From the NCBI RefSeq assembly GCF_943737015.1, contig NZ_CALSFP010000001.1, forward strand, positions 806,001-870,000: a stretch of 64,000 bases of DNA, in the 5' to 3' direction. Source of the DNA: Staphylococcus sp. Marseille-Q5304. GTDB lineage: Bacteria; Bacillota; Bacilli; Staphylococcales; Staphylococcaceae. The position numbers were made by a program, and so were the translations under genes. A model generated the notes under the pieces. That model saw only the letters and a list, made by a program, of their open reading frames with translations. It was not told where the DNA came from and ran no database searches. This document shows, piece after piece, positions 60,806-64,000 of this stretch (position 1 is the first letter of the stretch; the number at the start of each line of letters is the position of its first letter).

Positions 60806-61786
60806 ATGAATTCGTTAGCAAAAATTACAGCCCATGGGAAATATGTTCCGTCTAAAGTAATGACGAATGAAGATTTTGAAAAAATTGTAGAAACTTCTGA
60901 TGAATGGATACAACAAAGAACCGGTATTAAAGAACGTAGAATTACTGCTGATAACGAATACACGAGTGATATGAGCTATCAGGCAATTTTAAATCTCAAA
61001 GAGAAGTACAATGTAGATTTAACTGATGTAGACATGATTATTAACGCAACAATGACACCCGACTATAAAACGCCAAGCGTAGCAGCATACGTACAAGCTA
61101 GACTTGGACTTAAACAATGTGGTTCATTAGATATTAATGCAGCCTGCGCAGGTTTTGCTTATGGATTGAATATAGCGAATGGGTTGATTACTTCTGGACA
61201 ACATAAAAAGGTATTAGTGGTCGGGGCAGAGGCTTTATCAAAAATTACCGATTATAAAGACAGAAATACATGCATTTTATTTGGTGATGGTGCAGCAGCA
61301 TTTTTAGTAGAATATAGTGAAGATGAAACGAGTTTCATCGCGAGTAGCACAGGTACTGATGGTGAAAAAGGGAAATATCTCTATAGTACAGATCTATCTA
61401 ATAAGATGTTTGACGAAGACATGGAAAATCCTGGGTATATCGTACAAAATGGTCGCGGTGTATATAAATGGGCAGTTACTAATGTGCCACAAGTTATTCA
61501 AAACACATTATCTCAAACTGAATATAGTATAGATGATTTAAATTGGTTTGTACCACATAGTGCGAATGCACGTATGATTGAAGCAATTTGTAAAAAGTCT
61601 GGTATCAGTTATGACAAAGCATTAATGAGTTTACAATATTTTGGAAATACCTCTTCTGCAACGATACCTCTCGCAATTGATTTAGCAATGGAGCAACAAA
61701 AGTTAAATAAAGGAGATTTAATGTTGCTCGTTGGTTTTGGTGGAGGATTAACTTACGCCTCTACTTTGATAAAATGGACGATTTAA
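60806..61786 (+). CDS. 3-oxoacyl-ACP synthase III (FabH-like, likely second copy)
   Basis: Condenses acyl-CoA with malonyl-ACP to start fatty acid synthesis. The 326-residue thiolase-fold protein keeps the full catalytic triad: Cys114 (DINAACAGF), His251 (FVPHSANARM) and Asn281 (FGNTSSATIPLA). It should therefore be active. The housekeeping fabH is normally beside fabF elsewhere in staphylococcal chromosomes, so this one is likely a paralogue (FabH2), perhaps with another primer choice such as branched acyl-CoA; not testable here. It lies alone, divergent from the MerR/TipAS gene. A hairpin follows. Confidence 0.88.
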   Translation: MNSLAKITAHGKYVPSKVMTNEDFEKIVETSDEWIQQRTGIKERRITADNEYTSDMSYQAILNLKEKYNVDLTDVDMIINATMTPDYKTPSVAAYVQARLGLKQCGSLDINAACAGFAYGLNIANGLITSGQHKKVLVVGAEALSKITDYKDRNTCILFGDGAAAFLVEYSEDETSFIASSTGTDGEKGKYLYSTDLSNKMFDEDMENPGYIVQNGRGVYKWAVTNVPQVIQNTLSQTEYSIDDLNWFVPHSANARMIEAICKKSGISYDKALMSLQYFGNTSSATIPLAIDLAMEQQKLNKGDLMLLVGFGGGLTYASTLIKWTI

Positions 61787-61828
61787 TAATACTTAAGTAT
61801 AGAATTTAGAATATCAATTTCTAGCATT

Positions 61829-61863
61829 AAGCCCATCAAAGTTTCTGCAAACTTGATGGGCTT
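61829..61863 (+). terminator. Hairpin after the fabH-like gene
   Basis: Stem AAGCCCATCAA (61829-61839) with TTGATGGGCTT (61853-61863). T-run weak. Confidence 0.65.
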
Positions 61864-61889
61864 AAATTATATCGATAATTAGTTTTGAC

Positions 61890-61967
61890 TTTGCTCGCTT
61901 ACCTAGGGGGCTGGGTCGAGCCTCGGTCTCGACACACATCCTGCTCCCTCTGGTGTCTCGCAAGCAA
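61890..61967. repeat. GC-rich imperfect inverted-repeat element
   Basis: About 78 bases much richer in GC than the surrounding sequence. The ends TTTGCTCGC and TCTCGCAAGCAA form an imperfect outer pairing, AGGGGGCTGG with CCTGCTCCCT a second, and GTCGAG (61915-61920) with CTCGAC (61928-61933) a perfect inner hairpin. No coding content. Its make-up is foreign to the window and fits an intergenic repeat or the remains of a mobile element. Confidence 0.55.
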
Positions 61968-62225
61968 CATCACTTTTTATATATGATTATTATAAAATAT
62001 GACAATTACGTAAATTATAAAGTACAACCTCACCAATTTAACGACTTGTCTTTAAATTAAAAGTTTTAACAACTCTCAATTAACTCTACCAATGGTAACT
62101 GAAATGATACCACACATATTGAGAAACATTTAGTAGAAACGATTCCAGAAAAAATTTAATATTTTCTATGGTGCTGCCTCTTATCAACTTAAAGCGATGT
62201 AAAATCATATTTTATTTAAAGATGT
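61968..62225. other. Intergenic, no feature seen
   Basis: About 260 AT-rich bases between the GC-rich element and the MarR promoter. No gene or clear structure was found. Confidence 0.4.
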
Positions 62226-62280
62226 TTGTGTAAATATACAAATAATGATATCATTAAATTAGTTAGGTACCTAACTAATT
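62226..62280 (+). promoter_or_regulatory. marR promoter with 24-bp perfect palindromic operator
   Basis: TTGTGT (62226-62231), 17 bases, TATCAT (62249-62254). A perfect 24-bp palindrome spans 62257-62280; its half-site is AATTAGTTAGGT, and it starts 2 bases after the -10 and ends at the ribosome site AGGAGG (62281-62286). It would cover the start of transcription, the classic position for a self-repressing MarR operator. The GTTAG half-site recalls that reported for S. aureus MepR (from memory). Confidence 0.8.
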
Positions 62281-62294
62281 AGGAGGCAGTTTTC

Positions 62295-62822
62295 ATGAAA
62301 GATTTTTATTTATACGATAGTCCTTCTTTTAAAAGACTTAAAAATTTACGACAAGATTATCCAGAGTTAGATCCGAATTCTGTAATGCTTTATTTAGAGT
62401 TACAGAAAACTTATAAGTTAATGAAAGAAAAGCACGATAATTTAATGCAACAGTACGAAATATCAGATGCAAAATTTACAATTATGATGTTATTAACTAA
62501 AGAACAAGATATGACATTAGCGCCATCACAATTATCAAAAAAGATAGGAAGTAAAAAATCTACTATTACTGGCATTTTAAAAGGGATGGAGAATAAAGGT
62601 TTAATTCAAAGAAAGTTATATGAAGAAGACAAAAGAACTAATTATGTACAGCTTACGAAAGAGGGATTAACTGTATTAAAAAAAGTTTTACCAGAAAATT
62701 ATGAATTAGTATCTAGTATGTTTGAAACTTTCACTTCAGAAGAAAAGGAGACTTTTTATAATTTAATAAGCAAGTTAAAAAATAAATTATTAAAGGATGA
62801 GGAAAATGAAGAAGAAAATTGA
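62295..62822 (+). CDS. MarR-family transcriptional regulator (possibly MepR-like)
   Basis: A 175-residue winged-helix repressor. The MarR domain (about residues 40-165) has LSKKIGSKKSTITGILKGME (recognition helix) and the wing QRKLYEEDKRTNYVQLTKEG. The first 35 residues form an extra N-terminal part not typical of the family. The protein has no cysteine, so thiol oxidation is not its signal. It overlaps the next gene by 17 bases and follows the palindromic operator, so self-repression is likely. The neighbouring mepB-like gene suggests a MepR role, but length and sequence differ from the S. aureus protein as I recall it. Confidence 0.88.
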   Translation: MKDFYLYDSPSFKRLKNLRQDYPELDPNSVMLYLELQKTYKLMKEKHDNLMQQYEISDAKFTIMMLLTKEQDMTLAPSQLSKKIGSKKSTITGILKGMENKGLIQRKLYEEDKRTNYVQLTKEGLTVLKKVLPENYELVSSMFETFTSEEKETFYNLISKLKNKLLKDEENEEEN

Positions 62823-63165
62823 ATTATTAGAAACATATTTAAGTTTGTATATTAACCATCATGAAGTTTTAGAAGATATGGAAAAAGACGGGAATAAATA
62901 TAAAGTTATTGACGTAAGAAATGCTCCAAAAAAAGTAAAAAAAGATAAAATAAAGAATTCTATTGAAATACCTGCCAAAGAATTGAAAGAGCAGTTAGAT
63001 ACATTATCTAAGGATTACATTTATGTCGTATATGATTGGACAGGTGGCACAATACTAGGAAAGGTTGCACTACTAGAATTATTGAAGAACGACTTTGAAG
63101 CTTATGAATTAGCTGGAGCACTTGAGGGATGGAAAGGTATGAACCTCCCACTTGAAGAAGTTTAA
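62806..63165 (+). CDS. Rhodanese-fold protein without catalytic cysteine
   Basis: A 119-residue single rhodanese domain. KYKVIDVRNA near residue 32 is the start of the fold; IYVVYDWTGGT near 72-82 is where the active-site loop lies; AYELAGALEGWKGMNLPLEE closes the domain. Where the family has the sulphur-carrying Cys, this protein has Asp77, and there is no Cys anywhere. Sulphur transfer by the usual way is thus ruled out; a binding or regulatory role is more likely. It starts at ATG 62806 inside the end of the MarR gene; an ATG at 62797 is less likely. Confidence 0.82.
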   Translation: MKKKIELLETYLSLYINHHEVLEDMEKDGNKYKVIDVRNAPKKVKKDKIKNSIEIPAKELKEQLDTLSKDYIYVVYDWTGGTILGKVALLELLKNDFEAYELAGALEGWKGMNLPLEEV

Positions 63166-63195
63166 GTAATTAAAATAAAAAAATGAGTGAATGTG

Positions 63196-63711
63196 ATGAA
63201 AAAAGTTTTGGATGATTTTAGTTCTTATCAATTTATAAAATATGTACTGTCTTATATGGAGATAGATAGTATAGATAGCCCTACTAAAGAAAGATATAAC
63301 GTTGAATATGAAGCATTTCAATTTTCTGTTCAAAACACAACCTTTAAAAGTCGGTTAGCAAAACAGACACCTAAGAAAAAAGGTTATTTTGTCGCAATAT
63401 GGCACAAAAACAAGGACAATGTAAATATTCCATTTCATTTCGAAATCATGCAAGACTTTTTAGTGATTAATATATTAGATAAAAACTATAAAGGACAGTT
63501 CATTTTTCCGAAAGAACTTTTAAGACACAAAGGCCTCATTACTTCAAATAAACACAAGGGTAAAATGGCATTTCGTGTGTATCCATCATGGGAAACAAAT
63601 TTAAATAAAACTGCCAGCCAAACGCAAAAATGGCAACTACAATATTTTATAGATATGTCGGAAGAAATGGATTTCATAAAAATGAAGAATCTGTATTTTA
63701 ATAAATTTTAA
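63196..63711 (+). CDS. mepB: MepB family protein
   Basis: A 171-residue soluble protein of the MepB family, named after the third gene of the S. aureus mepRAB multidrug locus. Family-like stretches are YNVEYEAFQFSVQNTTFKSR, KKKGYFVAIWHKNKDN and GKMAFRVYPSWETNLNKTAS, followed by QTQKWQLQYFI. The function of MepB is not firmly known. The start is ATG 63196 (the upstream in-frame GTG at 63187 is less likely). It follows the rhodanese-fold gene by 30 bases and precedes the DJ-1-like gene by 21, so one operon is likely. No Cys. Confidence 0.88.
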   Translation: MKKVLDDFSSYQFIKYVLSYMEIDSIDSPTKERYNVEYEAFQFSVQNTTFKSRLAKQTPKKKGYFVAIWHKNKDNVNIPFHFEIMQDFLVINILDKNYKGQFIFPKELLRHKGLITSNKHKGKMAFRVYPSWETNLNKTASQTQKWQLQYFIDMSEEMDFIKMKNLYFNKF

Positions 63712-63732
63712 AATCGAAAAGAGGCTATAAAA

Positions 63733-64000
63733 TTGAAAATAGCAACATTTCTTATATTAGACCAATATGCTGAATGGGAAGCAACGTATCTAAGTGCAAC
63801 TTTGAGCAAGAGTGATGAGTGGGAAATACGAACAATCTCAACTCATCAACAAGTTAGGTCAATAGGTGGGTTTAATACGTTAGTAGATTATACATTAGAA
63901 AATGATCCTGGTGATGAAGCGTTACTTGTGTTAGTTGGTGGAGATAGCTGGAATATTGAGGACCCTACTGTGACAGAAAAAGTAAAGGATGCTTTTGATA
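63733..64000 (+). CDS. DJ-1/PfpI family protein, N-terminal part (3' end outside window)
   Basis: The frame starts at TTG 63733, 8 bases after AGAGG, and runs off the window; 89 residues are visible. It begins KIATFLILDQYAEWEATYLS, with SIGGFNTLVDYTL and ALLVLVGGDSWNI, as in the YoaZ-like branch of DJ-1/PfpI proteins (glutamine amidotransferase-like fold). The nucleophile Cys would lie just past the window end, so activity cannot be judged. It is the last visible gene of the MarR-led operon. Confidence 0.82.
   Translation, partial: MKIATFLILDQYAEWEATYLSATLSKSDEWEIRTISTHQQVRSIGGFNTLVDYTLENDPGDEALLVLVGGDSWNIEDPTVTEKVKDAFD

Follow-up and report, generated by a model that had tools for sequence, protein, structure and literature searches.

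A YetL-like MarR gene and an aspartate-type rhodanese gene form a conserved pair behind a palindromic probable operator in staphylococci

Closest described systems and anatomy of the locus

In Bacillus subtilis, the MarR-family regulator YetL is encoded divergently to yetM, the gene of an FAD monooxygenase; the portions available of two papers have it repress yetM and respond to flavonoids, kaempferol and apigenin being named (PMC10458429; PMC8481569), and an extract of a third reports a yetL mutation that its authors left aside (PMC10882977). The mepRAB locus of S. aureus combines a MarR gene and a mepB gene with a MATE pump and TAGTTAG half-sites. Further downstream in the locus described here, the relevant relatives are lp_1913 of L. 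plantarum, a rhodanese-fold protein whose PDB entries (3flh, 3fnj, 3i3u) are titled uncharacterized protein or protein lp_1913, and B. subtilis YdeA (PDB 3f5d), a DJ-1/PfpI protein with a cysteine elbow.

The locus lies at the end of the window, by which we mean the whole stretch of 64,000 nt that was analysed (Table 1). It has in common with yetLM a regulator related in sequence to YetL, but the partner of this regulator is a rhodanese gene in the same operon instead of a divergent monooxygenase gene. It resembles mepRAB by its MarR gene, its mepB gene and its TAGTTAG half-sites, but it has no MATE pump, its MarR belongs to another branch and its operator has another core.

Table 1. Features of the marR-rhodanese locus (window coordinates)
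Feature	Position	Strand	Remarks
Putative promoter TTGTGT-17-TATCAT	62226..62254	+	weak; 5 nt from the end of the -10 to the operator core
Probable MarR operator, 24-bp perfect palindrome AATTAGTTAGGTACCTAACTAATT	62257..62280	.	core TAGTTAGGTACCTAACTA at 62260-62277
marR, YetL-like transcriptional regulator	62295..62822	+	175 aa, no cysteine; Pfam MarR
Rhodanese-fold protein, lp_1913 type	62797..63165	+	Asp80 replaces the catalytic Cys; overlaps marR
mepB-like gene, lineage-specific addition	63187..63711	+	174 aa; PF08877, E 9.4e-48
DJ-1/PfpI gene, YdeA type, lineage-specific addition	63733..64000 in window	+	ends at 64323; 196 aa

A preliminary description had presented the locus as four tightly packed genes headed by a MarR regulator, with three complete proteins devoid of cysteine, and both statements were borne out: the marR and rhodanese genes overlap, the next two intergenic gaps are of 21 bp each, and Pfam assigns the domains MarR, Rhodanese, MepB-like and DJ-1/PfpI to the four products. 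The DJ-1 protein, once completed, does contain cysteines, one of them in the motif AICGA. To judge from its homologues, the rhodanese is likely to start at ATG 62806. The four genes are probably co-transcribed; a terminator between them had been named beforehand as evidence against a single operon, and the search of 61700-64000 gave no terminator-like site. The extension past 64000 that had been advised brought, after the end of the DJ-1 gene, a small ORF, a stem and other genes. That stem (64752-64780 in window numbering) is the sole terminator-like one found there, and a single one is within chance for the region. None of the ORFs listed to 74000 is pump-like, and the initial statement that there is no MATE pump holds for the completed operon, in which, according to Pfam, a yetM-type FAD monooxygenase is absent as well.

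The regulator and its operator

Among proteins of solved structure, the nearest relative of the window MarR is YetL (7wze; E 8.8e-24 over 157 residues), the best MepR chain giving E 1.6e-6. Since identity to YetL is only 32%, which is too low, the flavonoid ligand cannot be transferred to the window regulator. The gene of a 69%-identical YetL relative (L120) is divergent to an FAD monooxygenase gene (PF01494), that of another YetL-like protein (L126) precedes an NmrA-like gene, and similar NmrA-like and HlyD-like followers were seen by eye at other YetL-like loci. These arrangements would suit YetL-like regulators with oxidoreductase or efflux genes as cargo but do not fix the ligand of the window MarR. 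At L126 and similar loci with YetL-like MarR genes of other Bacilli, TTAGG(N2)CCTAA is found (around position 2000) just before the next genes, which in L126 include the NmrA-like one.

The perfect 24-bp palindrome reported previously upstream of marR was recovered at the same place. It is the longest in the window, where the next perfect palindrome of at least 18 bp measures 18 bp, and only 2 of 200 simulated 64-kb windows (first-order Markov) held any of 24 bp or more. The YetL site is said to read TAGTTAGGCGCCTAACTA, which would differ from the window operator in the two central bases only; these letters were not found printed in the literature searched. TAGTTAG(N4)CTAACTA has no other exact copy in the genome, and sites with up to two mismatches numbered 7 (window operator counted) versus 38 for the reversed control. 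At this rate, 7 sites in 2.28 Mb, the chance expectation per upstream region is about 0.001 site. A site with at most two mismatches was present near the marR start in all 30 regions scanned (0 mismatch in 11, 1 in 13 and 2 in 6), the scan taking the best site per 340-base window and having no shuffle control of its own; one locus devoid of MarR (L017, see below) was omitted. Not every one of the 30 operators counts as independent: L118 and L119 have one MarR accession, and L010 is close to L015, as is L018 to L023. In L010, L013, L014 and L030 the operator is at or inside the start of the longest ORF, so the true marR start must be further down. The palindrome had been described as covering the start of transcription; this layout is also present in homologues, and we accept it as that of a probable operator.

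The promoter of the window matches the consensus at 8 of 12 positions, with a poor -35. In 14 of the 30 loci a match of at least 10/12 stands directly before the operator. When the 50 upstream bases were shuffled 200 times by mononucleotide, such loci averaged 0.46 and never exceeded 3. The usual promoter-operator spacing of 5 nt is partly set by the scan, because only the immediate surroundings of the operator were covered. In L016, two inverted operator copies precede marR and might fold into a hairpin of 47 nt whose arms measure 22 bp.

Two operator cores, GG..CC and GC..GC, occur in the marR-rhodanese loci, and the recognition-helix residue following T-[IVA]-[TS] varies with them: it is Gly in 8/8 GG..CC loci and Lys in 20/20 GC..GC loci, a correlation which may reflect one event because it is limited to two clades. 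Among YetL-like genes elsewhere (window genome, L127, and five entries with no detected helix motif excluded), 18 have the Gly; 14 of these go with GG..CC, 2 with mixed cores (L121 and L133), 1 with GC..GC (L124, which violates the pattern) and 1, the closest YetL relative L120, with no site, TTAG(N4)CTAA being absent from its 3471-base locus. These exceptions argue against a strict helix-core rule and against presuming a site for every YetL.

Across 84 genomes of the genus, exact sites are hardly above the control by count (14 versus 11 for the reversed pattern), and all 14 are located at MarR genes. The GG..CC core was matched exactly in 6 genomes, each time before marR-rhodanese (6/6). An A..T core, of which TAGTTAGATATCTAACTA is an example (L104-L107, L109, L112, L113, L115), was matched in 7, each time at mepR-mepA-like genes (7/7); there, the MarR proteins are 20-27% identical and a MepA-like ORF stands behind. 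Genome G019 has a second A..T site between the mepR-like and mepA-like genes. Two of the pumps were scanned, one scoring above the NCBI MepA cut-off and one slightly below, and the remaining ones were assigned from their common start sequence. The GTTAG half-site from which a mep-like control had been deduced is thus explained, since both regulators have the same half-sites and unlike cores.

The rhodanese-fold partner and the distribution of the pair

The window rhodanese matches lp_1913 over its full length (E 9.7e-46), with the loop YDWTGGT of that family. As to a source on lp_1913, the part available of PMC7911632 names lp_1912 as PEP synthase and does not contain lp_1913. The accessible text of a study of S. 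epidermidis under xanthone stress (PMC6372523) gives rhodanese SERP1098 as decreased, and no link from it to the family with Asp could be made. Both stress studies concern other genes. All 29 family members have Asp at the place of the catalytic Cys. When the window protein was aligned pairwise to 12 Cys-type rhodaneses, mostly near-identical staphylococcal orthologues, Asp80 stood opposite the Cys in 11; in the remaining alignment the Cys is displaced by one position through a gap.

The rhodanese has diverged much less than its regulator: the median identities are 71% and 39%, and in 377 of 378 pairs the rhodanese has the higher value. In the loop at positions 78-89, a range picked post hoc from the alignment, 9/12 positions are invariant versus 29/110 elsewhere (p 0.0013). 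One member, L024, has a shortened start that lowers N-terminal invariance; when it is left aside the figures become 9/12 and 33/110 (p 0.003). Every position of the stretches 39-44 and 108-115 is invariant; these are better kept than 78-89, so the Asp site, although it ranks with the best-conserved parts, is not singled out by conservation. Such strong conservation would not be expected of a decaying pseudoenzyme, from which we infer that the protein has a real but non-standard function.

A scan with a seed pattern for close relatives, over one genome per species (84,980 species), gave 24 loci, of which 22 are family members at 60-72% identity; L026, a 22-residue fragment at a contig edge, and L027, of Cys type and 30% identical, were dropped. 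In all but one of these 22, marR directly precedes the rhodanese gene (21/22). The exception is L017, where MarR is absent and an NAD(P)H-binding gene stands upstream. Within the genus, 16 genomes were matched. Seven of the 84 have a full copy (two of them from the window species), always behind marR (7/7); eight with matches of only 25-32%, and G038, were omitted from the adjacency counts, and L034 is a duplicate of L013. What G038 carries is a broken remnant (L035, 64 residues matched, one in-frame TGA), which indicates that the unit is also being lost. At class level, the pair was seen by eye in the ORFs of a further match (L116), and 3 of 398 genomes, window genome and remnant counted, have the unit, which is therefore patchy. 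The rhodanese does not stand in the place of a pump, as had been thought, but is the gene that usually accompanies this MarR. The conserved neighbourhood that the preliminary description had suggested looking for exists for marR-rhodanese and not for the four-gene set: within the flanks examined (up to 5 kb in the species-wide loci, about 1.5 kb in the genus loci), mepB and DJ-1 are behind the pair in the window species only (2/84 genomes). In the genus genome G042 the unit is flanked by the same ORFs as in the S. massiliensis record L013.

The pair is also carried by plasmids. Out of 72,556 scanned, 49 gave a match, 44 of them at 60-80% identity, and S. aureus accounts for 29 of the best 30 entries. 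In the six plasmid contexts read, marR is always directly upstream of the rhodanese gene with a 4-nt overlap, and the operator TAGTTAGG(NN)CCTAACTA is at -34 to -37 of marR (6/6); three plasmids outside the 30 regions above add exact operator copies. In the stretch shown, five of the six contexts also hold IS257 or genes for replication, resistance or transport: pPM1 has blaZ, tet(K) and IS257, NZ_CP068683 has blaZ, cadD and IS257, and the plasmids of S. pasteuri, S. arlettae and M. sciuri have others; the stretch shown of S. aureus pTET1 has none of these. MarR and rhodanese distances are strongly correlated (Mantel r 0.82 over 28 loci, with 0 of 2000 permutations as high), and the MarR tree places the copies of Clostridium, Acetobacterium and Oceanobacillus inside a group with Enterococcus and Companilactobacillus, a region that is mostly unresolved in the rhodanese tree. 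Co-divergence and this grouping form the pattern that joint movement would give, and we propose that the two genes may move between bacteria and plasmids as a unit. One scan of viral contigs with a single protein found no relative. A defence system was set aside: the only PADLOC matches were weak ones between the MarR and CARF and Csa3 models, in their winged-helix parts, and the other three proteins gave none.

Proposed function and the genes behind the pair

The most likely reading, to which we give a probability of roughly 0.6, is a YetL-type switch for detoxification that represses itself and is released by a ligand; its effector would be a rhodanese that is not a sulfurtransferase. A MarR dimer would bind the TAGTTAG(N4)CTAACTA palindrome over the transcription start and block its own operon; a small ligand, probably aromatic or phenolic (flavonoid-like), would release it, and the rhodanese-fold effector would be produced in response. 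In the window species, mepB and the ydeA-like DJ-1 gene would be induced along with the pair. Because Asp replaces the catalytic Cys, the rhodanese should not act as a normal sulfurtransferase, and the strongly conserved loop kept at the Asp site suggests that it probably has a binding or catalytic job of its own in detoxification. That a MarR-headed operon with no pump may be a non-efflux response module had already been advanced, and this likely role is retained here. A wider proposal, which we put forward tentatively, is that the pair is a mobile two-gene resistance cassette, made of a YetL-type sensor and a new catalytic class of the rhodanese fold in which an invariant Asp-Trp loop replaces the cysteine, and present in lactic acid bacteria, clostridia, staphylococci and S. 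aureus resistance plasmids. No paper on the marR-rhodanese pair was found in the literature searched, which lay mostly outside subscription journals. A conserved, plasmid-borne regulator-effector pair of staphylococci for which no assigned function was found constitutes a concrete gap, and each step of the proposal is simply testable: the operator and the class of ligand are predicted, and the fold, a well-known one, has a candidate non-cysteine site.

The initial interpretation as a mepRAB-like system, here a multidrug module minus its MATE pump, drew on the mepB gene and on the TAGTTAG half-site that is common to the mepR-mepA sites of the genus. It is highly improbable in view of a regulator whose relationship to YetL is far closer than that to MepR, of the split of the cores in the genus between the two kinds of loci, of the pumpless completed operon, and of the neighbourhoods of mepB, where a mepA-like gene was found in only 5 of 51 loci (the top 30 by score out of 61 places, and 21 taken from the class sample). 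Somewhat less remote, though still improbable, is a response to thiols, electrophiles or sulphur species, in which the MarR would sense by cysteine oxidation and the rhodanese would handle persulfide. Sulfur and carbonyl stress commonly involve rhodanese and DJ-1 folds, and the window DJ-1 has the Cys of AICGA, but a cysteine switch is unlikely because the window MarR, like 25 of the 28 compared (itself among them), lacks cysteine, and the rhodanese itself is of the invariant Asp type.

The Asp-rhodanese might also serve the MarR as a ligand-binding co-sensor or anti-repressor and not be an effector enzyme. The overlap of the two genes, their almost constant co-occurrence with the rhodanese usually the only partner, and the better conservation of the latter would all suit such a role. 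A protein serving only a fast-changing MarR would, however, be expected to change alongside it and not to stay constant, and in L017 the rhodanese does without a MarR, behind the NAD(P)H-binding gene. We consider this role unlikely, and keep the ligand-released switch with a rhodanese-fold effector as the preferred reading.

The mepB gene is widespread in the genus (57/84 genomes). In the 51 mepB loci a DJ-1 neighbour was found three times, two of them in the window species, so the case for mepB and DJ-1 as a functional pair is weak. In L074 (G053), DJ-1 and mepB are adjacent in the order opposite to that of the window, with no MarR-rhodanese in the stretch examined. The predicted MepB model (mean pLDDT 92.7) matches MepB 4lqe (Z 21.1) and next the homing endonuclease I-Ssp6803I (Z 11.2, 126 residues, rmsd 2.9), followed by a lower band at Z about 6 with restriction enzymes, Holliday resolvases and SPARDA chains. 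The resemblance to I-Ssp6803I hints at a nucleic-acid role, the fold alone being no proof of a nuclease. The fourth gene belongs to the DJ-1 family (PF01965, E 1.5e-25) and is close to YdeA (E 1.1e-66), with AICGA in both. A second DJ-1 gene of YdeA type, 52% identical, is present in the genome near the start of contig 1 (G000:C1:489-1073).
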